Positions 1 through 35,117 of a stretch of DNA of 38,249 nucleotides are shown one piece after another (the stretch's first letter is position 1; each line of letters starts with the position of its first letter). Source of the stretch: Thermodesulfovibrionales bacterium (lineage in GTDB: Bacteria; Nitrospirota; Thermodesulfovibrionia; Thermodesulfovibrionales; SM23-35); assembly GCA_030019415.1 (NCBI GenBank), contig JASEEX010000018.1, positions 1-38,249 on the forward strand. Reading direction: 5' to 3'. The position numbers and the translations under genes were made by a program. Below the pieces are notes generated by a model. The model made no database searches. It had not been told where the DNA came from and worked only from the letters and a program-made list of their open reading frames with translations.

Positions 1-57
1 ATGGTGGTCTCCGTTACCTGGGAATGAAGTGGTATCGGTTACCTGGGACGTGACAAT
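1..57. repeat. Two copies of a GTTACCTGGGA motif at the window edge
   Basis: The motif GTTACCTGGGA occurs at about 13-23 and 38-48, each followed by a short A/G-rich tail. Closely spaced terminal repeats of this sort are seen at ends of IS21-type elements. The adjacent nucleotidyltransferase frame lacks its 5' part, so this may be the end of an element that interrupted it. No transposase is visible; the identification is inference. Confidence 0.35.
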
Positions 58-60
58 GAT

Positions 61-290: not shown

Positions 291-536
291 GTGGCAGAGA
301 TTACAATTGACCTTTCGACTTTTTACAATTCAAATGCCAAGCTCTCTGAACTTGACTCATACATCCAGAAAGCAAAAGCCCTTGCAGGGGACGGCAACGA
401 CGTTGTTCTTACAGGCCAGGCTCCTGTCTGGCTCTATCTGAAAATAGCCCATGCACTTCATGGAAAAACAAGGAAGTTGATATACAGAAGTCCGGTGACA
501 GGAGATGTGGTGATATTCGACCATTCACCGGAATAA
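291..536 (+). CDS. Csx3-like small CRISPR accessory protein
   Basis: This 81-residue protein starts at GTG with an AAGGAG site 7 nt upstream. The central block (residues about 38-76) has the layout of Csx3/Crn3: a GNDVVLTG strand, the APVWLYL motif, an AHALHG helix, and a VTGDVVIFDHS strand. In the family this matches G-P-I-W-L, the A-H helix and the final V-V strand before S-H. Csx3 is a ring nuclease that degrades the cyclic tetra-adenylate messenger of type III CRISPR systems. The His of the helix is present, but the Asp/Arg pair of the family's Y-D-P-R segment is not obvious here (YRSPV instead), so activity is uncertain. It sits 640 nt from cas2, which supports a CRISPR role. The protein is shorter than most Csx3 proteins. 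Confidence 0.55.
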   Translation: MAEITIDLSTFYNSNAKLSELDSYIQKAKALAGDGNDVVLTGQAPVWLYLKIAHALHGKTRKLIYRSPVTGDVVIFDHSPE

Positions 537-568
537 TGAGCAATGAACAATGAGTAATGAATAATTGA
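534..568 (+). repeat. Five in-phase 7-bp units (CAATGAG type), left of the 4HB gene
   Basis: Five consecutive heptamers run without a break: TAATGAG, CAATGAA, CAATGAG, TAATGAA, TAATTGA. The first contains the stop codon of the Csx3-like gene. A matching array in reverse orientation lies at 933-967 on the other side of the four-helix-bundle gene. Confidence 0.85.
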
Positions 569-577
569 AAACCAAAA

Positions 578-928
578 ATGAAAAGTAATATTATTGTCGG
601 ACGAAGTTATGAATTTGCTTTAAGAATTATAGATTTGGTGAATTCTCTTCCGAAGAACAGGATATGTGATATAGTTGGCAGACAACTTCTAAAATCTGGA
701 ATATCGATAGGTGCAAATGTTGAAGAAGCACAATCGGGTTACAGTAAAAATGATTTCACTAACAAAATGAGTATTGCTCAAAAGGAAGCAAGAGAATCCA
801 ATTATTGGTTAAGGCTATTAAGGGATAGTAATCAGATACGAGAAGATTTAATTGCCGATATTTTAATAGAATCTGAAGAGTTATCAAAAATGCTTTATTC
901 AATAGTCAAGACTTCAAAGCAGAAATAG
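578..928 (+). CDS. Four-helix-bundle protein (S23/IVP family)
   Basis: This 116-residue, all-helical protein belongs to the four-helix-bundle family first found in the intervening sequences of 23S rRNA. Recognisable parts are the N-terminal SYEFALRIIDLV helix, QLLKSGISIGANVEEAQSG in the middle (family pattern: R-R-A-x-S-I-x-x-N-I-x-E-G), and a KMSIAQKEARESNYWLRLL helix. Members form small basic bundles that may bind nucleic acid; the Avd protein of diversity-generating retroelements is a relative. No function is established for stand-alone copies. No clear ribosome binding site precedes the ATG. The gene is bracketed by inverted arrays of 7-bp repeats, 9 nt upstream and 4 nt downstream, suggesting that gene and arrays moved as one unit. 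It lies between CRISPR-linked genes but need not share their function. Confidence 0.8.
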   Translation: MKSNIIVGRSYEFALRIIDLVNSLPKNRICDIVGRQLLKSGISIGANVEEAQSGYSKNDFTNKMSIAQKEARESNYWLRLLRDSNQIREDLIADILIESEELSKMLYSIVKTSKQK

Positions 929-932
929 CTCT

Positions 933-967
933 TTAATTGCTCATTGTTAATTGATAATTCCTCATTG
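933..967 (-). repeat. Five in-phase 7-bp units, inverted partner of 534-568
   Basis: The plus strand reads TTAATTG, CTCATTG, TTAATTG, ATAATTC, CTCATTG. These are reverse complements of CAATTAA/CAATGAG-type heptamers. There are five units, as on the left side, so the 4HB gene lies between two inverted 35-bp arrays. Confidence 0.85.
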
Positions 968-1072
968 ATTCTTTGTTCTTTGACAACTGAATAAAAAATA
1001 TTGTCGCAATATTTCTTTTGCTGACAGCGGCCTGTAACCCCTTTTATTCTTATTGGTAGGGGAATGATTTTT

Positions 1073-1177: not shown

Positions 1178-1459
1178 ATGGAGAGGACGCTTTACCTGAT
1201 AGCTTATGACATATCGAATGACAGAAGGCTCAACCGCGTGCGCAACTTTCTCAAAGGCTACAGCACAGGAGGACAGAAATCGGTTTATGAGTGCTTCTTG
1301 ACCGATAGAGAACTCCGGTATGTAAAAAAGAAACTCGAAAGACTTATAAGAGAAGATGAGGACAGAGTGCACATATTCACAATGGATGGAAGAAGCAGAA
1401 CTCACACTCTCGGAATCGCTGTTCAGCCAAAGGACCCGGAATATTTCTATATAGGATGA
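1178..1459 (+). CDS. cas2: CRISPR-associated endoribonuclease/integrase subunit Cas2
   Basis: Cas2 is the small structural partner of the Cas1 integrase that inserts new spacers. This 93-residue protein has the standard N-terminal strand ending in the conserved Asp (LIAYDISNDRR, Asp at 11), the SVYECFLT strand at about 35-42 and the RVHIFTM strand at about 63-69. The length is typical. The start is ATG with GGAGAGGG 5-12 nt upstream. Its last codons overlap cas1 by 4 nt, so the two are translationally coupled. The order cas2 then cas1 is the reverse of the common arrangement. The Cas2 type cannot be assigned from sequence alone. Confidence 0.93.
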   Translation: MERTLYLIAYDISNDRRLNRVRNFLKGYSTGGQKSVYECFLTDRELRYVKKKLERLIREDEDRVHIFTMDGRSRTHTLGIAVQPKDPEYFYIG

Positions 1460-2424
1460 CGACAATGGGAACACTCTATATTGACAGGAAGGACCTTCAT
1501 ATCAGGCTCGATGGCAATGCCCTTGCATTTTACTCCAATGAAAAAAGGGAGGGAATTGTTCCGATTAGTCCTTTGAAGAGGGTTATCGTGATTGGAAATA
1601 TTTCGGTTGAAACACCAGTGCTTCACAGGCTTTCGAATGAAGGAATAAGCGTCCTCTTTCTGTCTGGCAAGAGGCTGAGGTTTTCCGGAATGCTGCATGG
1701 AAGGCTGCACAATAATGGCATCCTGAGGGTAAGACAATACGAAAAATCCCTTTCTGACTTCAGTAAAGAGATTTCGGTAGATGTCGTAAAAAGAAAGGTT
1801 GCAAGCCAGAAGGAGTTTTTAATGCAGGTGAGGGAGAGCAGACCTGATTTACGGTTTACCATGACAAAGGCTTTCAGGGTCTTGGAAAATATACTCGAAT
1901 CATTAAACTCGCAGGTTCTGCAGATGGAAACACTCAGAGGACTCGAAGGCGGTGCATCAGCAACATACTTTTTAGCGTACACAAAACTGTTTCCTGAATC
2001 CCTTGAGTTCAAGAAAAGGAACAGAAGACCTCCTGAAGATCCGGTTAATGCCATGTTGTCTCTATGTTATACACTCCTCCACTATGAGACCGTTAGGGAA
2101 ATCGAGGTTATCGGTCTTGACCCTACAATCGGCTTTTATCATCAGTTTGACTATGGCAGAGAATCCCTTGCATGTGACCTTGTTGAGCTATACAGGACAG
2201 ATGTTGACAGGTTTGTATGGCAACTTTTCAGGGAGAGAGCTTTTACTGTAAGAGATTTTGCCCAAGAAGATGAGAGGCCAGGCTGTTATCTAAAAAAAGA
2301 AAGCAGAAAAAGGTTTTATCCCCTTTACGAGGAATGGGCAAAGGGAATCAGACAGCAGCTCGTAAATGAAGTAAGAACACTTGCCACGAGGATCATGGAT
2401 GGACAGGACATTATATCTGAGTGA
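1456..2424 (+). CDS. cas1: CRISPR-associated integrase Cas1
   Basis: Cas1 catalyses spacer integration into the array leader end as a Cas1-Cas2 complex. The protein has 322 residues, a normal length. The N-terminal beta domain (1-75, with RVIVIGNISVET) is followed by the helical catalytic domain. All metal-ligand residues are visible: Glu164 in RGLEGGASATYF, His229 in GLDPTIGFYHQ, and Asp241 in ACDLVELYR. The DPVNAMLS helix precedes the His motif, as expected. It overlaps cas2 at its 5' end by 4 nt and the second cas1-like gene at its 3' end by 26 nt. It appears fully functional and probably serves the array at 3348-3749. Confidence 0.95.
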   Translation: MTTMGTLYIDRKDLHIRLDGNALAFYSNEKREGIVPISPLKRVIVIGNISVETPVLHRLSNEGISVLFLSGKRLRFSGMLHGRLHNNGILRVRQYEKSLSDFSKEISVDVVKRKVASQKEFLMQVRESRPDLRFTMTKAFRVLENILESLNSQVLQMETLRGLEGGASATYFLAYTKLFPESLEFKKRNRRPPEDPVNAMLSLCYTLLHYETVREIEVIGLDPTIGFYHQFDYGRESLACDLVELYRTDVDRFVWQLFRERAFTVRDFAQEDERPGCYLKKESRKRFYPLYEEWAKGIRQQLVNEVRTLATRIMDGQDIISE

Positions 2425-15638: not shown

Positions 15639-16499
15639 ATGGTGACACAAAACATAAGAAAAGATAAAAATTTATATAAAATTTTAGGGCCAGTAAGTTA
15701 TTTCCAAGAAGAAGAAGAAACTTATCTATTTTCCTTCCTTTTGGGTCGTATACGAGAATTATCCAAAGAAAAAGACGTCGGTCTTACGACAAAGGAAGGC
15801 CAGAGAGATGCAGTCTCAGTGCTTTCTGAAAGGATAAAGGATCTTGGCGAAATAAAAGAAGATAAAATGAGGTTTTCAGAGCTGGATAAGACTGTGAAGG
15901 AAAAACTTCTTATAGAGCTTTTCAGGCATGCCGCTTCAAAAGCCAACTATTTTGGAATATACGACAGGATTTTCTTCAGGTCAGATGAAAACATAGACTC
16001 ATATTTTGCGTTTGCTTTCGAGCTTACAGTCAGAGAATTTGATGACTCATACGGTTATTTCATAAATCCCACCCATCTCGCGATGGCAAGCTGTATAAGG
16101 TTATCAAGTAGACTTCAGGAAGGTGATAGGCTGATAAGACTATGCTCTAAAAGGTCCGAATGCAGTGTGTTTCTTGAAGAAGGGAGGTGTAAGTATTCAT
16201 ATCCGTCCTATATCGGGTTTCTCTCAGAACATATTAGACGTGACTCAAAAGACTTTGATAGTAAATTGGAGAACCTAAGGGAACTCTACGACATTTGTCC
16301 ATGCTTTGAGGATAAGGATTTTGGGATTGTATATGTCAAAAGAACTAAGGATACGAAAACAGAGCATGCATACCCTAGCTTTTTGGCTTTAGGGAGCTTA
16401 CAAGGAAAGAGAGACATTTGTTCGGCATTGAAAATGAGTTTAGGAGCAAGCTACTACCCCCTTCTCATGTCCGTTATCTTCATACAAGAATTATCGTAG
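15639..16499 (+). pseudogene. Long prokaryotic Argonaute, N-terminal part (frameshifted)
   Basis: This 286-residue frame is the N-terminal half of the Argonaute gene that continues at 16385 in the -1 frame. It should hold the N, L1 and PAZ-like regions; the segment with FINPTHLAMASCIRLSS and SYPSYIGFLSEHI is the most family-like. I base the call mainly on continuity: homologous reading passes from YPSF in this frame to FGFRELTRKERHL in the other at the T5 run 16380-16384. Residues after about 249 (LALGSLQ onward) are out of frame. Joined, the two parts give about 815 residues, a usual size for long Argonautes. The ATG has a weak AGGT site. A split two-protein arrangement, or programmed frameshifting, is possible but less likely. 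Confidence 0.6.
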
Positions 16500-18085
16500 A
16501 TAATGTGTTCAAAAATGATTCCATAAATGTCAATGACCTTAATTTGCTAATAAGTGTTGAGCTAAGAAATTTTCACGAGATGGCGGGTGAAGGTGTTGTG
16601 ACTGGATTGGAAGAGCCTCTACTTCAGTTTGATCCAATTAACGAAGACCTTTGTTCAATAGAACCATCTTCATTGTTTTTCAAGGGCGTGTATGATGCCT
16701 CCTCGGCTTATAGGCTTTTTAGTGCAATAAAACCTTATGCGATCATTCCAAGTGATACAAAAGCTGATGTGGATCAACTCTTTGACTGGCTGGCTAATGG
16801 AAAAAGTTATATTGATCGAGATGGCAGGCAAAGGTTTGAATTCGTAGGCCTTAATCACAGATTTTCAAGATTTAATTGTAGGTTCGTCTTTCCTGAAGAA
16901 AACGAATACTTTTATGCTGACACAGAAGAAAAGTTTATTGAATCAGCTGAAGCTATTGTACACCAGTGGAACAATGATAATGAAAGAGTTGTGCTCATTG
17001 TCCTTCCGGAGAGCTTGTATGAGGAAGAAGAAGAAGGCAGATATGATGAATATGCAAGGCCATTTTCGCTTTATTATAAGCTGAAAAAAATATTTGTGGA
17101 AAATGGCATCCCCTGTCAGATGATAGACAAGAGCACCTTGTCGAAAGTGGATAGGTATGTACTTCAGACTTTACTTGTAAATATTTACTCGAAATTAGGA
17201 GGCAGGCCTTGGTCTATGCATTCTCCATTAAGTGATGTAAATGTTTTTATTGGGATAGGATTTGGATTGAACCCTAAAGGAGCTGATAGGCACGTCTACA
17301 TTGGGGTGGCGAACGTTTTTGATAGTCATGGAGAATGGATGGATATATATTCTGACCATAAGGAAATCACGGAGGAGGAGAGACAATCTTTCTATGGCTA
17401 TGAGGCGTTTACTGAAAGGGCGGTAAGTTATAAGATTGCAGAAGAGTTGGCTCAAAAAATTACTGAGGAGTCACTCAAAAGATTTAAAGATGCTAATCCT
17501 CAAATTGGATATCCGAGAAATGTGGTTATCCACAAAAATGGCAGACTTCATGATTGCGAGATTAAAGGGATAACCGAAGCGCTCAAGAAACTTGAACAAA
17601 GCGGGGCTGCGTTTGAAAAGATAGGATTTGTATCAATCATTCAAGATCACAACTACAAGCTCTTCGGGAACGAGGATTCCTTTGAACGTGGAAACAAGGT
17701 TATAAAGGATAGGCCTCCCAAGAGAGGCGCTGTATACTTTCTTAATGAAAGCGAGGCTCTTTTATGCACGACGGGTAAATTCTATGGTGAAAGGCTGGGT
17801 GGGAAGAAACTGATTTACAGCGGCCTCGGGACCCCGAGACCTCTCTTGCTGAGAAACTATGATGTTAATCCCAGAGACTATGAACTGCCTGAGCTTCAAC
17901 TCTATCCTTTCATCGATTTAATTAAGCAAATTTTCGATTTGAGCAAGATACACTGGGGTTCTTTAAGAACCGATATTCATCTTCCGGTTACATCACTTTA
18001 TTCGAGCAGAGTCGCAAGAATCATCTCAAAAAGCGGAATAGAAAGAATCCATAGACCAGCGGCTAAAAGGCCCTGGTTTCTATAG
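16418..18085 (+). pseudogene. Argonaute MID-PIWI part with catalytic residues replaced
   Basis: The frame is open from 16379; TTG at 16418 is the first start-like codon. The MID domain has the 5'-phosphate-binding set Y-K-Q-K (YYKLKK at 219-224, Gln234, Lys259 in the family signature YSKLGGRPW). In the PIWI domain the first catalytic Asp is replaced: IGIGFG has Gly281 where active proteins have Asp. The second site reads HKNGR, with Asn374 for the usual Asp, and the last position (LYSSRVA) also lacks an acidic or His ligand. It is therefore of the nuclease-dead long-B kind, which bind guide and target and act through a partner effector. It sits inside a type I RM operon; hsdS follows after 33 nt. 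Confidence 0.82.
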
Positions 18086-18118: not shown

Positions 18119-19399
18119 TTGAAGAGTCAGCATGAAATTAAACAGACAAAGGTTGAGAAAATCCCGAAGGATTGGGAAGTGATGAAGCTGGGGGACTCTA
18201 AAGTAACTGAGGCCATTTACTATGGAATAACTGCAAAGGCAAGTAATCAAAACACTGGGCTTAAAATGCTAAGAACAACAGATATAAATGATTACAAGTT
18301 TGACTATGCAAAATTGCCTTTTTGTGAAATAACAGATAGCAGGAATCAATTAAATCAATATAACTTAGGTAAAGGCGACATCGTTATAGCTAGGGCAGGA
18401 ACAGTTGGTGTCTCTGTACTGGTTAGTGAAGATTATAAAGATACAGTATTTGGTTCTTACTTAATCAAGGTCAAACTTAAAAGCGGAATTTATCCAAAAT
18501 TTATACATTATTTTCTCCAATCCAATCTGTACTGGAACCACATACAGAAAGCACAAGGGAGTACTCTAAAAAATATAAATTTACCATTGCTAAGAAGCCT
18601 ATCACTCCCCCTTCCCCCTCTCCCCGAACAGCAAAAAATCGCTGAGATTCTGTCTACGGCAGATGAAGCAATCCAGAAAGTTGATGAGGCGATAGAGAAA
18701 ACACAAAAGCTGAAAAAAGGTTTGATGCAGGAACTGTTTACTAAGGGAGTAGTAGACAGTAGACAGCATACAGGGAAAAGGGAATTTAAAGACACGGAGA
18801 TTGGGCGGATACCGAAGGAGTGGGAAGTAATTGAAATCAAAAAACTTGGAAAAGTAATTACAGGTAAAACACCGCCAACAGCAAATAAAGAATATTGGAA
18901 TGGAGATGTTCCCTTTATTACCCCATTTGATATTGGCGAAGAAAAGCATGTCTATAATACTGAAAGATATATAAGTGCAAAGGGTGCGCAGAAAGTCGGT
19001 AATATTTTGCCCAAAGATGCTGTATTAGTCGTATGTATAGGCTCAACAATAGGTAAAATTGCTTTAACATTTAAAGAGAGTATCTTTAATCAACAAATCA
19101 ATGCCCTTATATGTAAAGACAATATCAATCCTCATTACGTTTATTATGCAATCTCATCAAAGGCTAATTTTTTAAAATCATTCTCAGGAACTGCCGCAGT
19201 TCCGATTATAAAGAAATCGCTTTTTGAAACGTTCAAGCTTCCCCTTCCTTCCCTCCTCGAACAGCAAAAAATCGCTGAAATCTTAAGCACGGTAGATAAG
19301 CGTTTGGAATTGTTAAGAGAAAGAAAAGCGAAGTTTGAAAGGGTAAAGAAGGGGTTAATGGGAGATCTCCTGACAGGGAGAAAAAGAGTGAACTTATAA
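18119..19399 (+). CDS. hsdS: Type I restriction-modification specificity subunit HsdS
   Basis: HsdS recognises the split DNA target. The 426-residue protein has two target-recognition halves, each opening with an IPKDWEV/IPKEWEV segment (about 15 and 232) and ending in a conserved coiled-coil helix preceded by LPEQQKIAEILS (about 168) and LLEQQKIAEILS (about 379). The start is TTG with AGGAG 7 nt upstream. At the junction between the halves, residues 211-219 (VVDSRQHTG) come from three GTAGACA-type 7-bp repeats. In EcoR124I-type enzymes, repeat number in the equivalent central region sets the spacing between half-sites. Heptad arrays continue directly after the stop. Confidence 0.95.
   Translation: MKSQHEIKQTKVEKIPKDWEVMKLGDSKVTEAIYYGITAKASNQNTGLKMLRTTDINDYKFDYAKLPFCEITDSRNQLNQYNLGKGDIVIARAGTVGVSVLVSEDYKDTVFGSYLIKVKLKSGIYPKFIHYFLQSNLYWNHIQKAQGSTLKNINLPLLRSLSLPLPPLPEQQKIAEILSTADEAIQKVDEAIEKTQKLKKGLMQELFTKGVVDSRQHTGKREFKDTEIGRIPKEWEVIEIKKLGKVITGKTPPTANKEYWNGDVPFITPFDIGEEKHVYNTERYISAKGAQKVGNILPKDAVLVVCIGSTIGKIALTFKESIFNQQINALICKDNINPHYVYYAISSKANFLKSFSGTAAVPIIKKSLFETFKLPLPSLLEQQKIAEILSTVDKRLELLRERKAKFERVKKGLMGDLLTGRKRVNL
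18752..18772 (+). repeat. Three GTAGACA-type heptamers inside hsdS
   Basis: GTAGACA, GTAGACA, GCATACA are contiguous and read in frame (21 bp, seven codons) in the linker between the two recognition halves of HsdS. Loss or gain of one unit would shift the frame. Confidence 0.85.
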
Positions 19400-19490
19400 G
19401 TAGACTGCAGACGGTAGACTGTAAACAGGGAGAGAGCAGAAATCGTAAGTAGACAGCATACAGTAGACAGTAAACGGCACACAGTAGACA
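19400..19490 (+). repeat. GTAGACA-type heptamer arrays between hsdS and the second 4HB gene
   Basis: Four units follow the hsdS stop directly (19400-19427). After a 21-bp break, six perfect in-phase units follow (19449-19490): GTAGACA, GCATACA, GTAGACA, GTAAACG, GCACACA, GTAGACA. Related sequence continues past the next start codon to about 19551. Confidence 0.9.
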
Positions 19491-19505
19491 GGAGGAGTCA
19501 AAGAG

Positions 19506-19889
19506 ATGAGTACACAGCATATATCAAACAGCAGACGGGAAACAGCAAAGAAATTTGAAGACTTAGAAGTCTGGAAAAAGGCTCATGAACTGGTATTGAA
19601 CATTTATAACATTACGAAGGATTATCCATCGGAAGAAAAGTTTGGATTGGTGTCTCAAATGCGACGAGCTGCGATTTCTATTCCCGCAAATATTGCTGAA
19701 GGATTTAAGAAACGTGGTATTAAAGATAAGACAAACTTTTACAACATAGCCCAAGGTTCACTTGAAGAATTGAGATACTATTTAATTTTATCAAGGGACC
19801 TCGGATATTACGAAGATACAAATAAATTACACGATTTAATAGAAGTAATTGGTAGGATGCTCTATGGACTCATTAAAAGCATACAGTAG
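19506..19889 (+). CDS. Four-helix-bundle protein (S23/IVP family), second copy
   Basis: The protein has 127 residues. From residue 17 it is a canonical member: FEDLEVWKKAHELVL, then MRRAAISIPANIAEGFKKR, then a helix with YNIAQGSLEELRYYL. Residues 1-16 (HISNSRRETAK) derive from heptad-repeat DNA and are not part of the family domain; the last codons and the stop (SIQ) are likewise in a heptad array. GGAGG lies 9-13 nt before the ATG. It separates hsdS from hsdR within the RM operon. It is only distantly like the copy at 578-928, so they are not a recent duplication, yet both sit in heptad arrays. Function is unknown. Confidence 0.9.
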   Translation: MSTQHISNSRRETAKKFEDLEVWKKAHELVLNIYNITKDYPSEEKFGLVSQMRRAAISIPANIAEGFKKRGIKDKTNFYNIAQGSLEELRYYLILSRDLGYYEDTNKLHDLIEVIGRMLYGLIKSIQ

Positions 19890-19960
19890 AAAGCAAACAG
19901 TAGACAAGGGAACAAGTGTAGCTCTTAATCCCTATATGCTGTCTACAGCCTACTGTCTAC
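19879..19960. repeat. Heptamer arrays after the second 4HB gene, direct then inverted
   Basis: Four direct units cross the stop codon (19879-19906): GCATACA, GTAGAAA, GCAAACA, GTAGACA. After a 26-bp spacer, four inverted units follow at 19933-19960 (TATATGC, TGTCTAC, AGCCTAC, TGTCTAC). The inverted block pairs with the direct arrays on the left of the gene. Confidence 0.88.
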
Positions 19961-19978
19961 TAACATCGGTGAAATAAC

Positions 19979-22900
19979 ATGTCAACCCAAGTTGAAAAAA
20001 TAGCGGTTGAAGATTATTTCCTGAAAAGACTTCAGGAAAAGGGATGGAGATTTGTTCCTTCTGATGACCTTGAGAGGGACAGCTATGACGAACCTCTTCT
20101 TATCCCTAATCTTGTGAGAGCCATTGAAAGAATCAATAAGGCAAACAGTAGACAGCAAACGGTAGACAGGGAGAGTAAAACAGTTCCCAGTTTGCAGTCT
20201 ACTGTCTACAGTCTACCTCCTGGTGATGAAGAGATCAATAAAGTTGTTAATGAGTTAAAACTGACAGGTACAGGGATAGAAGGAGCAAAGAAGATTCTGA
20301 ATTTCTACAAATTCGGTGTTCCTGTTAAGTTTGAGAAAGAGAAAGTTATCAAGTATGTGCAGCTTTTTGACTTTGAGGAGATTGAGAATAACGAATTTAT
20401 AATCACAAGGCAGGTCTATTATCATGGAAGGGACAGAATAAGAACAGATATAGTCCTCTACATTAATGGTATCCCTCTGGTCAATATTGAGTGCAAAAGC
20501 CCTGTCAGCATATCAGAAAGCTGGTATACGGCTTTCAAGCAGATCAAGGATTACGAAAAGCTTGCCCCTGAGCTTTATAAATATGTTCAAATCGGGATTG
20601 CTGCTGAAAGTAAGGCGAAATATTTCCCCATCGTTCCCTGGCAGGAAGAGATAAAAATACACGAGTGGAGAGAGGAGGGGAAGGATTCCATTGATGCTAC
20701 AGTAGAGATGCTCTCAAGAGACATCCTCCTCGATATCATCAGAAACTTTCTCTTTTTCAGAGTCGAATTCGGAAATGCTACCAAAGTAATCACAAGATAC
20801 ATGCAATACTGGTCAACTAATAAAATGGTTAATAGAGTCATAAAAAATTTAAAAGGTGAAGAAGAGAAGAATAAAGGACTTATATGGCATTGGCAGGGTA
20901 GTGGGAAAACCCTGACTATGATATTTGCTGCGAATAAACTCTACTACGAGAGGAAACTTGAAAATCCCACGATATTCTTTATTGTTGACAGGGTTGAACT
21001 CGAAGACCAGCTTTACAAAGAGTTTTACTCTTTAGACCTTGTAAAACCAGAAATAATTGATTCTATATGGGGGCTTAAGGAACTTCTGAAATTTGATGAC
21101 TACCGGAGTAAGAGGGGGGTATTCATTATTCTTATTCATAAATTCAGATCTGAGGAACTCAAGGAGCTCCAGGGAGAACTCGAAAAGGTATCAAAACTTA
21201 AAGAAACAATTATGAACAGAAGAAATATTGTAGCCTTCATTGACGAGGGGCACAGGACACAATACGGAACTCTTGCTGCTCAAATGAAGGCGCTCCTTAA
21301 AAATGCATTTTTCTTTGCCCTCACAGGAACCCCTATCTCAAAGCGAGGAAGGGATACCTATCTTGAGTTCAGCTATCCTCCGGAAGAATCATACCTCGAT
21401 AGATATTTCATAACGGATTCTATAAAGGATGGGTTCACTTTAAAAATCGTTTATCAGCCAAGACTCGAAAAAGAAGTTCACTTAAAAAAGGATTTGCTGG
21501 AAGCCTTTTTAGAAACAGAGTTTGAGGAATTGCCAGAAGAGGTAAAGGAGGATGTAGAAGAAAAGATAAAGAAAAGGCTGAATGCTATAAAAGTCGTGCT
21601 TGAAAATCCGTTCAGGATAAAGGTTATTGCTGAGGATATAGCCCGCCAATTTAAAGAAAACATTGATGGTAAATTTAAGGCAATGGTAGTAGCAGGAAGC
21701 AGAAAAGCCTGCGCCCTTTACAAGGGAGAATTAGATAAATACCTGCCCAGGGAATACTCTGAGGTGGTGATGACCTATGAGAGAGATGACAAACCTGTCG
21801 TTCGTGAATTAGCTGCAGAATCGATAGCGAAATATGGAGGAAGGGATGTTGATGATGTTAGGAAACTTGTTATCGAGAAGTTTAAGGAAGAAGAATTTCC
21901 AAAGATATTGATAGTTACGGATATGCTTCTGACAGGCTTCGATGCCCCTATCTTACAGGTCATGTATCTTGACAAGCTTCTCAAAGAACATAGACTCCTT
22001 CAGGCTGTAGCGAGGACAAATAGACCTTTTAGAGATTTGAAGGAAGCAGGTGTTGTTATTGATTATGTAGGGATCTTAAAGGAATTTAAGAAAGCCCTTG
22101 AGATGTATAGTGAAGAAGACATTAAGGGAGTGCTCTTTAGTTATGAGAGTATTAGAGAGGAGTTTGTTACTCTCATAAACGAGACCCTTGCGATATTTAA
22201 GGATGTGCCGAGAGATTACGAAAGAGAAACCTTATTGAAGGCGATCGAGGTACTCACCTCTGATGAGGAAAAAGAAAAAGAGTTTGTTGAGAAATATAGA
22301 AATCTGAGGAAGGTCTTCGAACTTCTCGGGCCAGATGAGATTAAGCTTGAGTATTTTGAGAATTACAAATGGCTCTCCACTATCTACACCTATTACATGA
22401 AGGTAGTAATACAAAAGCCTCCCTACGAGGAATATGTTCAGAGATATTATGATAAGACCATACGATTTATTCACAAGTCAACAGAAATAGATAGGCTGGA
22501 TAGAGAACTCCCTGCAATAGCCTTCGACCAAAAATACCTTGAGGAATTAGAAGAAAAAGTAAAGGACAGAAAAGAGAAAGCTGCCAATATCCTCTTTACA
22601 CTCAATAAATTAGTTCTCGTTGAAAAACACCGCAATCCTGTTTACGAATCTCTGGTTGAAAAAGTTGAGAGATTGCTTGAAATATGGAAGGAGAAAACAA
22701 GGGATTTCAAGAGGGTATATAGTGAAGGCGTAAAAATAATAGAACAGATAAATGAGCTTTCAAAAAGGCAGAAGTCCCTTGGTTTTTCAGATCTTGAGTA
22801 TTCGATGTTGCTTGAACTTGAAAAAAAATTGGACAAAGGTGTCGAATTTGTAAAGGATATAAAAGAGCTTTCAGGAAGGCTTGAAAAATTTATGTTCTTT

Positions 22901-29675: not shown

Positions 29676-30464
29676 TTAGCGCAAGGTGTATTCTCTCTTC
29701 ATGTATAAAAAATATTCTATATTGCCTCTGCGCCCGGGGAGGGGGGACCGAAAAATTCCGATGGTTCTGAGGCCGATCTCCTCTAAATCTCTCTTAACAC
29801 CTTCGACAGCCCTTAACCTTTTTCCCTCTTCCCTCACAATTCCCCCTTTCCCCACCTCTCCCTTCCCAACCTCAAACTGTGGCTTGACGAGGGAAAGGAC
29901 CTCGCCTTCTTCCTTAATAAATCCTACAATCGCAGGAACCACCTTCGTCAGAGAGATAAAAGAGACGTCCACCGTTGCCATGTCTATATTACCTTTCATA
30001 AGGTCTTCAAACTCCTGACTCCTGAATCTTTTCTCCTGACTCCTGAGTACTTTATTGAGATATCTTATATTTGTCCTCTCCATCAATATGACCCTCGGGT
30101 CTTCTCTGAGGGGCCATGCAAGTTGCCCATAACCTACATCTATGCAGTATACCTTTTTTGCCCCCTTCTTCAGTAAACAGTCTGTAAAGCCGCCTGCCCC
30201 AGAACCAACATCCATGATAATCTTACCATTGACACCGATATCGAAAAATTCTATTGCCGCCTCAAGCTTGAGACCTCCTCTGCTGACATAAGGCAGGCCT
30301 TCTTCTATGAGAGATATGTCTGAAGTCTCACTGATGGAGGTGCCTGCCTTTGTTATTTTTTTACCATTTACGAAGACCTTTCCCTCTATAATGAGGGCCC
30401 TTGCCAGCTCTCTGCTCTTTACAAGCCCTCTCGAAACAAGGATTTTATCCAATCTCTCCTTCAA
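29676..30464 (-). CDS. tlyA: TlyA-family rRNA 2'-O-methyltransferase
   Basis: TlyA-type proteins methylate ribose 2'-OH groups of rRNA; they were once called hemolysins. The 262-residue protein has an N-terminal S4 RNA-binding domain (ERLDKILVSRGLVKSRELAR to about 60) and an RrmJ-like methyltransferase domain with DVGSGAGGFTDCLL. Later motifs are VDVSFISLTKV and VKPQFEVGKGEVGKGGIV. The start is TTG, overlapping the dxs stop. Residues about 140-151 (RSQEKRFRSQEF) come from in-frame heptad repeats. Confidence 0.92.
   Translation of the reverse strand: MKERLDKILVSRGLVKSRELARALIIEGKVFVNGKKITKAGTSISETSDISLIEEGLPYVSRGGLKLEAAIEFFDIGVNGKIIMDVGSGAGGFTDCLLKKGAKKVYCIDVGYGQLAWPLREDPRVILMERTNIRYLNKVLRSQEKRFRSQEFEDLMKGNIDMATVDVSFISLTKVVPAIVGFIKEEGEVLSLVKPQFEVGKGEVGKGGIVREEGKRLRAVEGVKRDLEEIGLRTIGIFRSPLPGRRGNIEYFLYMKREYTLR
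30011..30045 (-). repeat. CAGGAGT-type heptamers inside tlyA
   Basis: On the plus strand ACTCCTG, ACTCCTG, AATCTTT, TCTCCTG, ACTCCTG stand in one 7-bp phase. Four of the five units match closely. They are translated in frame within tlyA. Confidence 0.75.
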
Positions 30465-32395
30465 TGGCTATATGTTGGTTCTTTGAGAATGGAGAGCGCA
30501 GTATGATATATTCCCTCTTCATCGAGCCCATACTTTTTTCTCAATTCATCTTGGTTGCCCTGGTCAATAAATTCATCCGGTATACCGAGCCGCCTGACTC
30601 TTACATCATAGACTTCCATCTTATTCAGGAATTCAAGCACAGCGCTGCCAAAGCCACCAGCGAGGGCATTCTCTTCTACCGTGATTATCCTCTTAACTCT
30701 TGATACTATAGAGAGTAGAAGATTACGGTCTAAGGGTTTTATAAACCTTGCGTTTACAACCATTGCACTGATTCCTTCCTTTCCAAGTTGTTCTGCTGCT
30801 GACAGTGCTGGGTAAACAGTACTGCCTATGGCTATTATTGCTATATCATTGCCTTCCTTTAAGATTTCTGCCCTTCCTATGTCTAATAGTGACGAGTGAC
30901 GAGTGACGAGTGACGAGTCTTTGGAATTATTTTTTTCTGTTAACTTGCAACTTGTAACTTGCAACTTGTCACTAACCTTCCCCCTCGGATACCTTATTGC
31001 TGATGGCCCATTGTGTTTTAGGGCAAGCTCGAGCATGGCCCTGAGTTCAAAATCATCCTTAGGTGCCATGACAACGAGATTTGGGATGTGCCTTAGATAG
31101 GATAGGTCAAACAGTCCGCTATGTGTAGGACCATCCTCTCCGACTATCCCTGCCCTGTCAATAGCAAAAATAACATGGAGGTTCTGGAGACAGACATCAT
31201 GGACTATCTCGTCATAGGCCCTCTGAAGAAAGGTGGAGTAGATTGCAACGACAGGTTTTAACCCCTGCGTTGCAAGCCCTGCAGCAAATGCTACAGCATG
31301 GGGCTCTGCAATGCCGACATCATAAAATCTATCAGAATATCTTTCTGAAAAATGTTCGAGGCCCGTGCCTTCTTTCATCGCTGCTGAGATAGCAATTATC
31401 CTCTCATCTTTGGCTGCAAGTTCTGTCAGGGTATCACCAAATACCTCACTGTAAGTCAATCCACCTTCACTCACAGGTGCCCCTGTTTCTGGTTCGAAGG
31501 GTCCAACTCCGTGAAAGAAGGAAGGGTTATTTTCTGAAAACTCATACCCCTTCCCCTTTTTCGTTATAACGTGTATAAGGGTAGGGGATGACGCTGTTTT
31601 TATCCTCTTCAGTGTTTCGATGAGTAATTCAATATTATGGCCATCGATTGGGCCGATATAATTAAATCCGAGTTCCTCAAAGATGATTCCTGGCAGGAAA
31701 AGCCCTTTGAGTATCTCCTCTGTCCTCTGGGCTATCTTTGCTGCTCTCTTTCCTAATTTCGGAATTCCCTCGAGAAGTGATTTAGTCTGCTTTCTGAACT
31801 TCCGATATAACTCTCCCGTAAGTATCCTGCTTAGATATGCAGAAAGGGCACCGACACTCGGTGATATGGACATTTCATTGTCATTCAGAATGACAATGAG
31901 GTCTTTTCGGAGGTGGCCAGCATTGTTTAACCCCTCAAATGCGAGCCCTGCTGTCATTGCTCCATCACCGATAACAGCTATGACCTTAAAATTCTCTTTA
32001 TTCTTATCTCTTCCTTCGATTATGCCGAGGGCCGCTGATATTGAGGTAGAGCTATGTCCTGTGCCGAAGGCGTCGTGCTCACTTTCCTCTCTTTTGGGGA
32101 AGCCAGAAATACCTTCATATTTTCTGAGGGTTGAAAACCTTTCGTATCTTCCCGTGAGGAGTTTATGGGAATAGCACTGATGACCAACATCCCATATTAT
32201 TTTATCCACCGGTGAATTGAATACATAATGGAGGGCAATTGTCAATTCTACAACTCCGAGATTTGAGGATAGATGACCTCCATTTATCGATACCTTTTCG
32301 ATTATTGTCCCCCTCAGTTCTCTTGCAAGCTCCTTGAGTTCTGAAATAGAGAGTTTTTTTAAATCTGACGGTAATTTGATCGATTCCAGATACAT
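30461..32395 (-). CDS. dxs: 1-deoxy-D-xylulose-5-phosphate synthase
   Basis: Dxs makes DXP from pyruvate and glyceraldehyde 3-phosphate, the first step of the MEP isoprenoid pathway. The protein has 644 residues from the ATG at 32395, chosen because AGGAGG lies 5-10 nt upstream; a TTG one codon earlier is possible. TPP-binding GDGAMTAGLAFEGLNNAG, DVGHQCYSHK near the N-terminus and EDGPTHSGLFDL are present. Residues about 474-504 derive from two heptad arrays. It shares one base with the ispA stop and overlaps tlyA. Confidence 0.96.
   Translation of the reverse strand: MYLESIKLPSDLKKLSISELKELARELRGTIIEKVSINGGHLSSNLGVVELTIALHYVFNSPVDKIIWDVGHQCYSHKLLTGRYERFSTLRKYEGISGFPKREESEHDAFGTGHSSTSISAALGIIEGRDKNKENFKVIAVIGDGAMTAGLAFEGLNNAGHLRKDLIVILNDNEMSISPSVGALSAYLSRILTGELYRKFRKQTKSLLEGIPKLGKRAAKIAQRTEEILKGLFLPGIIFEELGFNYIGPIDGHNIELLIETLKRIKTASSPTLIHVITKKGKGYEFSENNPSFFHGVGPFEPETGAPVSEGGLTYSEVFGDTLTELAAKDERIIAISAAMKEGTGLEHFSERYSDRFYDVGIAEPHAVAFAAGLATQGLKPVVAIYSTFLQRAYDEIVHDVCLQNLHVIFAIDRAGIVGEDGPTHSGLFDLSYLRHIPNLVVMAPKDDFELRAMLELALKHNGPSAIRYPRGKVSDKLQVTSCKLTEKNNSKDSSLVTRHSSLLDIGRAEILKEGNDIAIIAIGSTVYPALSAAEQLGKEGISAMVVNARFIKPLDRNLLLSIVSRVKRIITVEENALAGGFGSAVLEFLNKMEVYDVRVRRLGIPDEFIDQGNQDELRKKYGLDEEGIYHTALSILKEPTYSH
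30889..30968 (-). repeat. Two heptamer arrays inside dxs (CTCGTCA and CAAGTTG types)
   Basis: Four perfect GTGACGA units occupy 30889-30916. Four units alternating TAACTTG and CAACTTG occupy 30941-30968. Both are in frame in dxs, encoding KLQVTSCKL and SLVTRHSSLL, at a point between conserved blocks. Confidence 0.9.
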
Positions 32396-33399
32396 CAAAC
32401 CCTCCTTTTTAAGAGATAACAGGCGATCCCCCTTAATTGATCTGCCTCAGAGGAGAATATCTTAAGGGCATCTATCGCCCCTGAGATTAAATCCTCTGCC
32501 TTTTGTCGTGACTTCTCTATTCCATATAGCGCTGGATAGGTCATCTTTTTCACATCTGAACCTGCTGTTTTGCCGAGTTCCTTTGTGTTGCCTTCTATAT
32601 CAAGGATATCGTCAATGATCTGGAAGGCAAGTCCTATGTTTTCTCCATATTTTGTTAAGGCCTTCAATTTATCCCCCTCACTGTCAGCGAGTATTGGCCC
32701 CATTCTTACAGATGCTGTTATAAGGGCTGCTGTTTTGTGAAGGTGGATGAAAGTAAGGGTATCTCTGTCAGGTTCTGAGTTCTCTGAGAATATGTCCAGG
32801 GCCTGGCCTCCAACCATGCCGTGGGCACCTGCTGCCAAGGCGACCTCTCTTATTACTTTTATTAGGGTGGATGGATTCATTTCTTTATGTAAGTATACCC
32901 CCTCCCTAACCCTCCCCCCTGAAGGGGGAGGGAAGGGAGGGGGTGAAGTTTCACTTGATAATCCCCCCATCCCCCATTTAGTAAAAGGGGGTAAGGGGGA
33001 ATTTGTGTTCGTCATCATAAAGAATGCCTCTGTAAGAAGGGCATCACCTGCAAGGATTGCCATTGCTTCACCAAAGACCTTATGGCTTGTAGGTTTACCA
33101 CGCCTGAGGTTGTCATTGTCCATGGCAGGCAGGTCATCGTGGATAAGGGAATAGGTATGTATAAGTTCCAGTGCCGAGGCATAGGGAATGATATTTTTTG
33201 GATCTTTTCCACATGCTTCATATGATGAAAGGGCAAGGATAGGGCGGATTCTCTTGCCTCCTGCAAAGAGGGAATATCTCATCGCCTCATGGAGAACAGA
33301 GGGTTCAGAAGGGATGCTGAAATATGATTTTAGGTATGAGTCAATTAATTCACGTTTTTCTCTGAGATATGTCTTTATATCAAACTTGGCCATTTTCAT
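32395..33399 (-). CDS. ispA: Polyprenyl (farnesyl/geranylgeranyl) diphosphate synthase
   Basis: This prenyltransferase condenses isopentenyl diphosphate with allylic diphosphates. The protein has 334 residues, about 40 longer than usual. The first Asp-rich motif DDLPAMD is at 88-94 and the second, QIIDDILD, near residue 265. The excess is residues about 131-172 (SPLPPFTKWGMGG, then PPPFPPPSGGRVREG), produced by two palindromic G/C-run repeats inserted in frame in a loop. Product length (C15 or C20) cannot be decided. It lies between guaA and dxs; the start has no strong ribosome binding site. Confidence 0.93.
   Translation of the reverse strand: MKMAKFDIKTYLREKRELIDSYLKSYFSIPSEPSVLHEAMRYSLFAGGKRIRPILALSSYEACGKDPKNIIPYASALELIHTYSLIHDDLPAMDNDNLRRGKPTSHKVFGEAMAILAGDALLTEAFFMMTNTNSPLPPFTKWGMGGLSSETSPPPFPPPSGGRVREGVYLHKEMNPSTLIKVIREVALAAGAHGMVGGQALDIFSENSEPDRDTLTFIHLHKTAALITASVRMGPILADSEGDKLKALTKYGENIGLAFQIIDDILDIEGNTKELGKTAGSDVKKMTYPALYGIEKSRQKAEDLISGAIDALKIFSSEADQLRGIACYLLKRRV
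32896..33002. repeat. Two palindromic G/C-run repeats inside ispA
   Basis: The unit at about 32899-32943 pairs CCCCCTCCCTAACCCTCCCC with its G-rich complement. The unit at about 32961-32997 pairs CCCCCCATCCCCC with GGGGGTAAGGGGG. The second is the same family as the repeat in trpE at 5407-5436. Together they add about 40 codons without breaking the frame. Confidence 0.8.
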
Positions 33400-33417
33400 A
33401 AATCACAGCTCTTACAT

Positions 33418-33542
33418 TAAAGGCAGGAGATCACCCTTTCGCTCATTCTCGCCCCGCATCATTATGTTATAGTGCGGAGCTCCGAGGTGAATTCCAATTT
33501 CATTGGAATTCAAAACCGCTCAAGGGCAATCTCCTGCCTTTA
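33418..33542. repeat. 125-bp palindromic element between guaA and ispA
   Basis: Exact 14-bp terminal inverted repeats TAAAGGCAGGAGAT (33418-33431) and its complement (33529-33542) enclose a perfect inner hairpin TGAATTCCAAT-TTC-ATTGGAATTCA (33488-33512) and a CCGCA/TGCGG pair. It has MITE form. It lies in the ispA leader on the minus strand and could terminate guaA transcripts or affect ispA. Confidence 0.65.
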
Positions 33543-33554
33543 TCATGACTATTT

Positions 33555-35117
33555 CTATTCCCACTCTATCGTGCTTGGTGGTTTTGAGCTTATATCATAG
33601 ACCACCCTGTTAACCCCTTTCACCTCGTTTATTATCCTGTTTGATATCTTTTCCAGAACATCATATGGTATCCTTGCCCAGTCAGCAGTCATGCCATCCA
33701 GGCTCTTTACTGCTCTGACAGCTATGACATTCTCGTATGTCCTCTCATCACCCATAACGCCAACGCTTTTAACAGGCAGAAGCACAGCAAAGGTCTGCCA
33801 GAGATTCGTGTAAAGCGCTGCATCCTTTATCTCCTCTAAGACTATAGCATCTGCCTTTCTCAATATATTACACCTTTCACCCGTCACCTCCCCAATAACC
33901 CTTATAGCAAGGCCAGGCCCTGGAAATGGATGACGGTTTATTATCTCATCGGGTATACCGAGTTCTTTTCCTAAAAGCCGAACCTCATCCTTGAATAGTT
34001 CCCTAAGGGGTTCTATGAGTTTTAAATTCATCTTTTTTAGAAGCCCTCCGACATTATGATGGCTTTTTATGGTAGCTGATGGGCCCCTGAAAGATACGCT
34101 CTCTATAACATCAGGGTATAGTGTTCCCTGTGCAAGGAACCTGACCCCTTTAATTTTTTCTGCCTCTTCCTCAAAGACTTTTATGAATTCATTGCCGATA
34201 GTCTTTCTCTTTACCTCGGGATCGGTAATACCTTTCAGTTTATTGAGAAACCTCTCAGAGGCATCAACACAATTTATATTCATATAGAAATGCCTTCTCA
34301 GGGTTTCCTCAACCTTTTTTGCCTCTCCTGCCCTTAAGACCCCATTATCCACAAAGATGCAGGTAAGCTGTTCCCCAATAGCCCTATGCACCATTACTGC
34401 TGTAACAGTAGAATCTACCCCACCGCTTATACCGCATACAACCTTTTTATTTCCAACCTTCTCCTGTATCTCTTTTGTGGCCGTCTCTATAAAAGACTTC
34501 ATAGTCCATGTGGGCTTGCATCTGCATATCTTAAATAAAAAATTTTTAAAAATATCAAATCCCATTGGAGTATGTACAACCTCGGGATGAAACTGTAGGG
34601 CATAAAATCTCCTCCTTTTGTTTGCCATTGCTGCAATAGGTGAATTAGCCGTATGTGCTATTGGTTTAAAGTCAGGTGGACAATACTCAATTCTGTCGCC
34701 GTGGCTCATCCATACAACAGTTTTGAGTTTTGAGTTTTGAGTTTTGAGTTTTTCTCCTATACCTTTCAGCAAATCCGAATCGTCATCAATTATAAGTTCA
34801 GCCCTGCCGTATTCCCTTTTCACTGCCTTTGCAACCTTTCCACCAAAAAGATGTGCCATGAGCTGCATGCCATAACAGATACCTAACGCGGGTATACCGA
34901 GTTCAAATATCTTTATGCTCGGGATTGGCGCATTCGCATCATAAACACTTGAAGGCCCACCTGAAAGAATTATCCCTTTTGGATTGAAATTCTCTATCTT
35001 TTCGATTGAGGCATTAAAAGGAAATATCTCTGAGTAAACCTTACATTCTCTCACCCGCCTCGCAATTAGCTGGGTATACTGAGAGCCAAAATCAAGGACT
35101 AAAATCTTTTCTTGCAT
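33555..35117 (-). CDS. guaA: GMP synthase (glutamine-hydrolysing)
   Basis: GuaA converts XMP to GMP. The 520-residue protein has the class I glutaminase domain with nucleophile Cys81 (GICYGMQL) and QFHPEV. The PP-loop ATP pyrophosphatase domain has [10 protein letters not shown], followed by the dimerisation domain ending IEWE. Residues 121-134 ([13 protein letters not shown]) come from four TTTTGAG heptamers inserted in frame in the glutaminase domain, before WMSHGD. The ATG follows the guaB stop without a gap. Confidence 0.97.
34721..34748 (-). repeat. Four perfect CTCAAAA heptamers inside guaA
   Basis: On the plus strand TTTTGAG is repeated four times without change. It is read in frame in guaA as [10 protein letters not shown]. 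Confidence 0.92.

Follow-up and report, generated by a model that had tools for sequence, protein, structure and literature searches.

A four-helix-bundle (4HB) gene and the two repeat arrays that enclose it, at positions 534-967 of the 38,249-nucleotide stretch of a Thermodesulfovibrionales genome analysed here (the window; contig JASEEX010000018.1), are probably a mobile cassette of the type known from the intervening sequences (IVS) of 23S rRNA, here residing outside rRNA, with a protein that we infer to recognise the hairpin of the repeats and to aid its spread. The ends of this cassette are set not by one fixed sequence but by two mutually complementary arrays of ~7-nt repeats (heptads).

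A 4HB gene between complementary heptad arrays

The gene (578-928, plus strand) encodes a 116-aa protein of the S23p/23S_rRNA_IVP family, matching PF05635 with 78.9 bits (cut-off, 33.8) and TIGR02436 with 92.9 bits (cut-off, 24). Its AF2 model (pLDDT, 94.3) shows four helices and superposes on the solved members 2rld (TM, 0.89) and 2gsc (TM, 0.84) and, more distantly, on Avd (4dwl; TM, 0.76). Both solved members have five chains per entry, and the protein is probably a pentamer like these relatives. We know of no role for PF05635, a family with solved structures. According to the ORF list and a profile search, the unit is without a transposase gene, the PF05635 gene being its only one, and the protein itself matched only PF05635- and TIGR02436-type models, with no HUH tyrosine transposase among them.

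The left arm (534-568, plus strand) comprises five imperfect heptads, TAATGAG, CAATGAA, CAATGAG, TAATGAA and TAATTGA, with a unit of approximately AATGARY (AATGAGC, AATGAAC, AATGAGT, AATGAAT). The right arm (933-967, minus strand) is the inverted complement of the left one and reads, as reverse complement, CAATGAG, GAATTAT, CAATTAA, CAATGAG and CAATTAA. TRF detected period 7 at 531-565 and 933-959, and the arms pair in inverted orientation over ~40 bp (score, 18.5). A first-pass annotation of this DNA had described exactly five heptads per side, the right set being inverted; number and inversion stand, but the copies are imperfect, the right array is the weaker one, and the number five has no special meaning because array length varies between loci. 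As the same annotation correctly noted, the csx3-like ORF in front of the gene ends within the left array (stop codon TAA, 534-536). The unit has the tandem 7-bp repeat that is the criterion for an STRR-type SSR, and its S23p ORF sits in the loop of complementary termini, as the criterion for an IVS asks.

Among dinucleotide shuffles of the 57-nt flanks of the gene, the left array was matched in 2 of 20,000, the right array in 20 of 20,000 and the complementarity of the arms in 12 of 20,000, while all three jointly were matched in none of 20,000. Together with the behaviour of other periods, these shuffles lead us to reject a chance origin of the arms. The RNA fold of the whole unit is not unusually stable (z, -0.98), though the two arms do pair in the centroid fold.

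Filled and empty sites between csx3 and cas2

Comparison with relatives shows that, at the csx3/cas2 site, the 4HB gene and its two arms are jointly present or jointly absent. The host side of the insertion site is marked upstream by the csx3-like ORF (291-536, plus strand; PF09620, 31.9 bits; TIGR02579 below cut-off), which is kept in relatives with an empty site, and just right of the unit by a conserved block (972-1054, plus strand), with cas2 and cas1 (1178-2424, plus strand; PF09827 and PF01867) as the downstream neighbours. In three relatives (G001, G012 and G005), the entire unit is missing, and csx3 is followed within 10-20 bp by the conserved block starting near 972; an empty site lacking all of 534-967 does exist. 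The proposal of the first-pass annotation that gene and inverted arrays are one mobile unit gains support from this presence or absence as a block and from the control frequencies reported below. Another relative (G003) carries arms as in the window around an internally deleted 4HB gene, and in G007 the same spot holds a truncated 4HB gene with another unit. We regard the slot (window 536-972, and L032, L033 and L035) as a hotspot, given that three relatives leave it empty, others have 4HB cassettes of differing units in it, and G014 has an apparent toxin-antitoxin pair there. Toxin-antitoxin-like genes are probably also present in the slot of G015 and G016.

Comparing filled with empty sites revealed no clear target-site duplication, the relatives being too diverged, and no sharp conserved terminus was found at the unit ends. 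Note that mobility is inferred here from presence and absence between species rather than strains, and that no movement has been observed.

Heptad arrays beside 4HB genes in many phyla

In the loci surveyed, the arms-gene-arms design recurs around PF05635 genes of many phyla. Focusing on 80 4HB loci from many phyla, we found period-7 arrays at 2.19 per kb beside the 4HB gene versus 0.165 per kb far off on shared contigs, and no other period was enriched except, more weakly, period 8 (about 20-fold). With the home family added (123 4HB genes), an adjacent period-7 array was present at 84 genes (68%) versus 81 of 533 size-matched control ORFs (15%; Fisher p=2e-30), and arrays on both sides at 43% versus 1.3%, which confirms the expectation that heptad arrays are commoner at 4HB flanks than elsewhere. 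Median left-right complementarity was 21 at 4HB loci, compared with 9.5 at controls and likewise 9.5 when arms of different 4HB loci were combined. The enrichment persisted at every threshold, in the home family and outside it, and a further set reached via whole genomes, which partly overlaps the first, yielded arrays in 17 of 25 cases. PF05635 was present in 86 of the 148 Nitrospirota genomes searched. It should be kept in mind that these comparisons take each gene or genome as a data point, irrespective of shared lineage.

About 20% of 4HB genes, those of Capnocytophaga for example, are without clear arms. An armless PF05635 subgroup of ~57 bits (L093, L094 and similar) is seen in several genomes of the family and is perhaps a domesticated copy, apparently inherited vertically. 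Some 4HB loci (L003/L114) use an 8-bp unit, such as GGTTAAAT, and heptad arrays beside 4HB genes can be up to ~650 bp long (L139, L152, L181 and L310; Chitinophaga, Natroniella and Vreelandella records).

The heptad unit follows the protein

Across the loci compared, the heptad unit is seen to travel with the 4HB gene, which is carried in sense orientation within operons. Of the 78 loci with two-sided arrays, 86% had own arms that were inverted-complementary (score of at least 13) and 13% had own arms that matched directly; against the arms of other loci, the match fell to 3.5%. In 77% of loci, the unit was purine-rich on the gene strand. Among pairs of similar proteins that came from different phyla, 36 of 89 shared their unit, the maximum in 5000 permutations being 16, or 23 when permuting within phyla. 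Illustrative examples are a TCAGCNN unit common to loci of Proteobacteria, Armatimonadota, Nitrospirota and Acidobacteriota, and an AGRAGAC unit common to loci of Cyanobacteria, Acidobacteriota, Bacteroidota and Nitrospirota. Many of these loci come from metagenome bins, and misbinning could fake some of the cross-phylum pairs. Host composition as the source of shared units is rejected by the within-phylum permutation and by dissimilar proteins of the same phylum (5.6%). Over the whole set, the Mantel correlation of protein with unit was not significant (rho, 0.058; permutation maximum, 0.128), distant proteins being dominant; only similar proteins (similarity of at least 0.5) carry the signal, which is strong among them. 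A strict rule of five fixed plus two variable bases per heptad had to be discarded, as the variable positions tended only weakly to be neighbours (25:19:10).

Where armed 4HB genes had parallel neighbours, 65 of 67 pointed in the neighbours' direction, as expected of inserts that are tolerated in, or act from, a transcript.

Gene-less heptads in the window and beyond

A second 4HB locus in the window (19400-19961) has its gene (19506-19889, plus strand; PF05635, 131.4 bits; TIGR02436, 125.9 bits) between hsdS and hsdR, with the unit AGTAGAC on both sides; neither this locus nor the gene-less arrays of the window figured in the first-pass annotation of 534-967. Left arrays occupy 19400-19494 (plus strand); on the right (19876-19961), direct heptads overlap the gene end and are followed by an inverted array of GTCTACT (19939-19961). 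AGTAGAC is also found without a gene, as heptads within hsdS (18751-18774, plus strand) and as an inverted pair in frame within hsdR (20141-20216), the latter being absent from the hsdR of G019 and diverged in that of G018. The ORF just upstream of hsdS (16418-18085) shows a weak match, below cut-off, to a prokaryotic Argonaute model.

Further heptads lie within three minus-strand genes, tlyA (29679-30464), dxs (30464-32398) and guaA (33558-35117). The ACTCCTG heptads of tlyA (30011-30046) are replaced in orthologues by other heptads or by non-repetitive sequence, usually of equal length, such that the stretch keeps its 36 nt with repeats or without; in dxs, AGTGACG is followed by AACTTGY (30888-30973), and the unit differs among relatives; and guaA contains five AGTTTTG heptads (34719-34752), with AGTTCGG at this spot in G006 and no insert in others. 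Differing heptads at the matching spot of sister genomes, usually in frame, indicate that units turn over in place. The window also contains dispersed repeats of ~50-120 bp (32897-33005 and 33417-33542) with many copies in related genomes. The former lies within the ORF of a polyprenyl synthase, and as the family match of that ORF falls into two parts, it may be an in-frame insert. The first 50-60 bases of the window (1-59) are near-identical on several contigs of the source genome and of relatives, some of them at contig ends, and are probably the end of an insertion sequence.

The source genome has nine PF05635 matches. In all six complete loci that were read by eye, the arms were inverted and the unit was particular to the locus, with period 8 in one case. 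Excluding 4HB loci, 42 heptad arrays were found in 202 kb of this genome.

As far as such comparisons reach, gene-less hairpins share the arm units of the resident 4HB genes, and same-order genomes that lack the gene have hardly any of them. For gene-less arrays at a distance of over 2 kb from the nearest 4HB gene (45 genomes), a match was seen in 0.263 of pairs with the 4HB arms of their own genome versus 0.038 with those of other genomes (permutation maximum, 0.138; 10,000 permutations), and the match was stronger within one locus (32-49%) than between contigs (16%). An inverted partner within 400 bp was present for 128 of 383 gene-less arrays versus 30 in the control. Regions of same-order genomes without PF05635 contained 4 weak arrays in 578 kb; gene-bearing Nitrospirota genomes, sampled in regions mostly picked by contig number, contained 35 in 518 kb, with other periods similar in the two groups.

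Copies can also be followed in the complete genome G030, which has three of one 4HB element, two at 95% identity and a truncated third whose left-hand neighbouring sequence is different all the way to the array. Near one of the copies lies a hairpin of identical unit that has no gene. Two of the three share CRISPR flanks and may stem from segmental duplication. In one region of this genome (L046, 15700-16400), a palindromic element is repeated inside a CRISPR array next to a 4HB cassette.

Published heptad families

The heptameric repeats described for Xanthomonas (GGGAATC), Nostoc (GGGGAYT) and Beggiatoaceae/cyanobacteria (TAACTGA) have a 7-bp unit as here and, again as here, often form inverted pairs and are intergenic or in frame within genes. 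The Xanthomonas heptads were described as inverted pairs at ~70 sites in each genome, without an associated gene (Rehm and colleagues, PMC4692102). In a word search, the reports on these families drew no link to a gene and did not mention the four-helix protein. We found both GGGAATC and TAACTGA as arms of 4HB genes.

As a forward test, 369 gammaproteobacterial genomes were searched for three tandem GGGAATC, which occurred in a single one. The only PF05635 gene of that genome, frameshifted and apparently between accB and accC, sits between GGGAATCGGCAATGGGGAATCGGGAATCG and CGATTCCCTACTCCCCATTCCCGATTCCCG, that is, between inverted GGGAATC arms. The corresponding prediction for TAACTGA had a mixed outcome across three genomes. 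G172 has 62 TAACTGA sites and a 4HB gene with TAACTGA arms; this genome was first chosen for its gene, so the result is not blind. G688 has a PF05635 gene with unreadable arms. The cyanobacterium G678, with 18 exact sites of three TAACTGA and no PF05635 match, is one counterexample.

Relation to rRNA IVS, RAYT-REP and Avd

The 23S IVS of Coxiella is closed by a 28-bp terminal stem in which RNase III cleaves; its loop holds an S23p ORF, regarded as not expressed, and just before this ORF are tandem GACAGAT heptamers in numbers that vary by strain (Warrier and colleagues, PMC4990558). It is because of this precedent, combining S23p in a stem loop with heptamers and RNase III, that 534-967 is best read as an IVS-type cassette. 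The family link with IVS had been drawn from the protein; heptameric repeats before the same ORF in Coxiella make it closer than claimed (PMC4990558). Cassettes and the 23S rRNA IVS of Leptospira and Coxiella also have in common the sense orientation of a gene of this family within the loop of complementary termini, and a patchy horizontal distribution. They differ in that the cassettes lie between protein genes (csx3/cas2, hsdS/hsdR, accB/accC), and in that their arms are two-sided heptad arrays with a locus-specific unit and gene-less derivatives genome-wide. IVS interrupt 23S rRNA at helix 9, 25 or 45; the 534-967 unit, between csx3 and cas2, is outside all three. No 23S rRNA copies of the cassette were seen in the 4HB loci fetched, and rRNA motifs were present only in L209 and L252, which had not been fetched for a 4HB gene; the rRNA link therefore rests on the literature.

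A RAYT (TnpA-REP) gene is flanked by its matching repeat, gene-less inverted pairs (REPINs) lie elsewhere, and protein and repeat covary (PMC3116915). The 4HB cassette resembles this system in all three respects: a flanking repeat with gene-less copies in the same genome meets the RAYT-type criterion, gene-less hairpins share units with resident arms, and the unit tracks the protein, so that the analogy proposed in the first-pass annotation fits. Unlike RAYT, an HUH tyrosine transposase, the 4HB protein is an all-helical bundle without such a domain, and while REPs are fixed palindromes, the 4HB arms are period-7 arrays.

That Avd of diversity-generating retroelements is homologous to PF05635 has been acknowledged (PMC10053308), and the fold is indeed shared with 578-928. 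This relation, also raised earlier, extends to the fold only, heptads being missing at four true Avd loci. The Avd model NF033474 gave no match for 578-928, and 19506-19889 scored 35.9 bits against a cut-off of 80. An Avd gene is expected beside a reverse transcriptase with template and variable repeats; the neighbours of the 534-967 unit are csx3, cas2 and cas1. On the score and the absence of heptads at Avd loci, we reject an Avd-type element.

Competing explanations

The heptads might be ordinary slippage microsatellites, lying next to 4HB genes by chance or through a shared tolerance of intergenic space. Polymerase slippage has been proposed for the over-representation of heptameric repeats in some bacteria (PMC4692102), and arrays within ORFs do switch unit in place among relatives. 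We strongly disfavour this explanation and give it very little chance, given that 4HB genes are enriched for arrays over control ORFs of the same contigs, that arms are inverted copies of each other, that similar proteins have common units across phyla, and that same-order genomes in which the gene is missing have almost no arrays while showing no such lack of other periods. We also think it unlikely that the hairpins are independent small mobile repeats into which 4HB genes repeatedly inserted as passengers. Gene-less hairpins, often with a close inverted partner, are common enough for this, and G678 has heptads with no PF05635 match; yet the unit correlates with protein similarity across phyla, the arms are biased in polarity and the gene in orientation, and there are almost no arrays where the 4HB gene is lacking.

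Improbable, too, is a purely regulatory role, in which the 4HB protein would bind the heptads of its own ORF and control the mRNA while the gene moves by ordinary horizontal transfer. Such a role could account for arms that lie directly at the start and stop codons and base-pair with the gene between them, for the covariation of protein and unit, and for the sense orientation. It fits poorly with empty sites that lack exactly gene plus arms and with several copies in one genome, and gene-less hairpins, some inside conserved housekeeping genes, would need another explanation.

Proposed mechanism and implications

On our best reading, the IVS-type cassette works in the manner of a RAYT-REP pair, although no transposase can be recognised in it; binding and catalysis are inferred, as is an RNA stage. 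The 4HB protein would recognise the heptad hairpin, as DNA or RNA, for which there are no binding data, and would help to copy or spread its own cassette and the gene-less hairpins. A unit that follows the protein, and gene-less copies that follow the resident unit, are what a recognition factor predicts, which is not the same as a binding assay. Catalysis may be borrowed from the host or from another element, as we propose because the 4HB protein has no known catalytic domain; by analogy, Avd works with a reverse transcriptase. In a transcript, the arms would form a stem and leave the 4HB gene looped out, similar to IVS RNA that RNase III cleaves, and it may be through this structure that sense orientation is kept. 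Slippage combined with arm-to-arm templating could allow drift of the unit without loss of complementarity between the arms.

The protein family, rRNA IVS and heptameric repeats are each already known. No paper joining the three was found among the open-licence papers searched, though an earlier report elsewhere is possible; the closest published link is the remark on the Coxiella heptamers (PMC4990558). Clean presence and absence along with recurrence in many phyla make the cassette look like a widespread, largely unrecognised mobile element. A wider claim, in which our confidence falls short of even, is that most bacterial heptameric repeats, GGGAATC and TAACTGA among them, are made and spread by the 4HB/S23p protein as their trans-acting factor. 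This would define a class of elements whose ends are set by period and self-complementarity, not by sequence, the 23S rRNA IVS being the special case of an element that inserted into rRNA. Tying PF05635, rRNA IVS and heptameric repeats together provides a protein, a nucleic-acid target for each locus and a prediction about heptad-bearing genomes, each of which is testable, and the cassette may also account for the 7-base repeats scattered through many bacterial genomes. If this is true, many genomes would hold hundreds of small elements, some of which rewrite, in frame, parts of conserved genes like dxs, guaA and tlyA.
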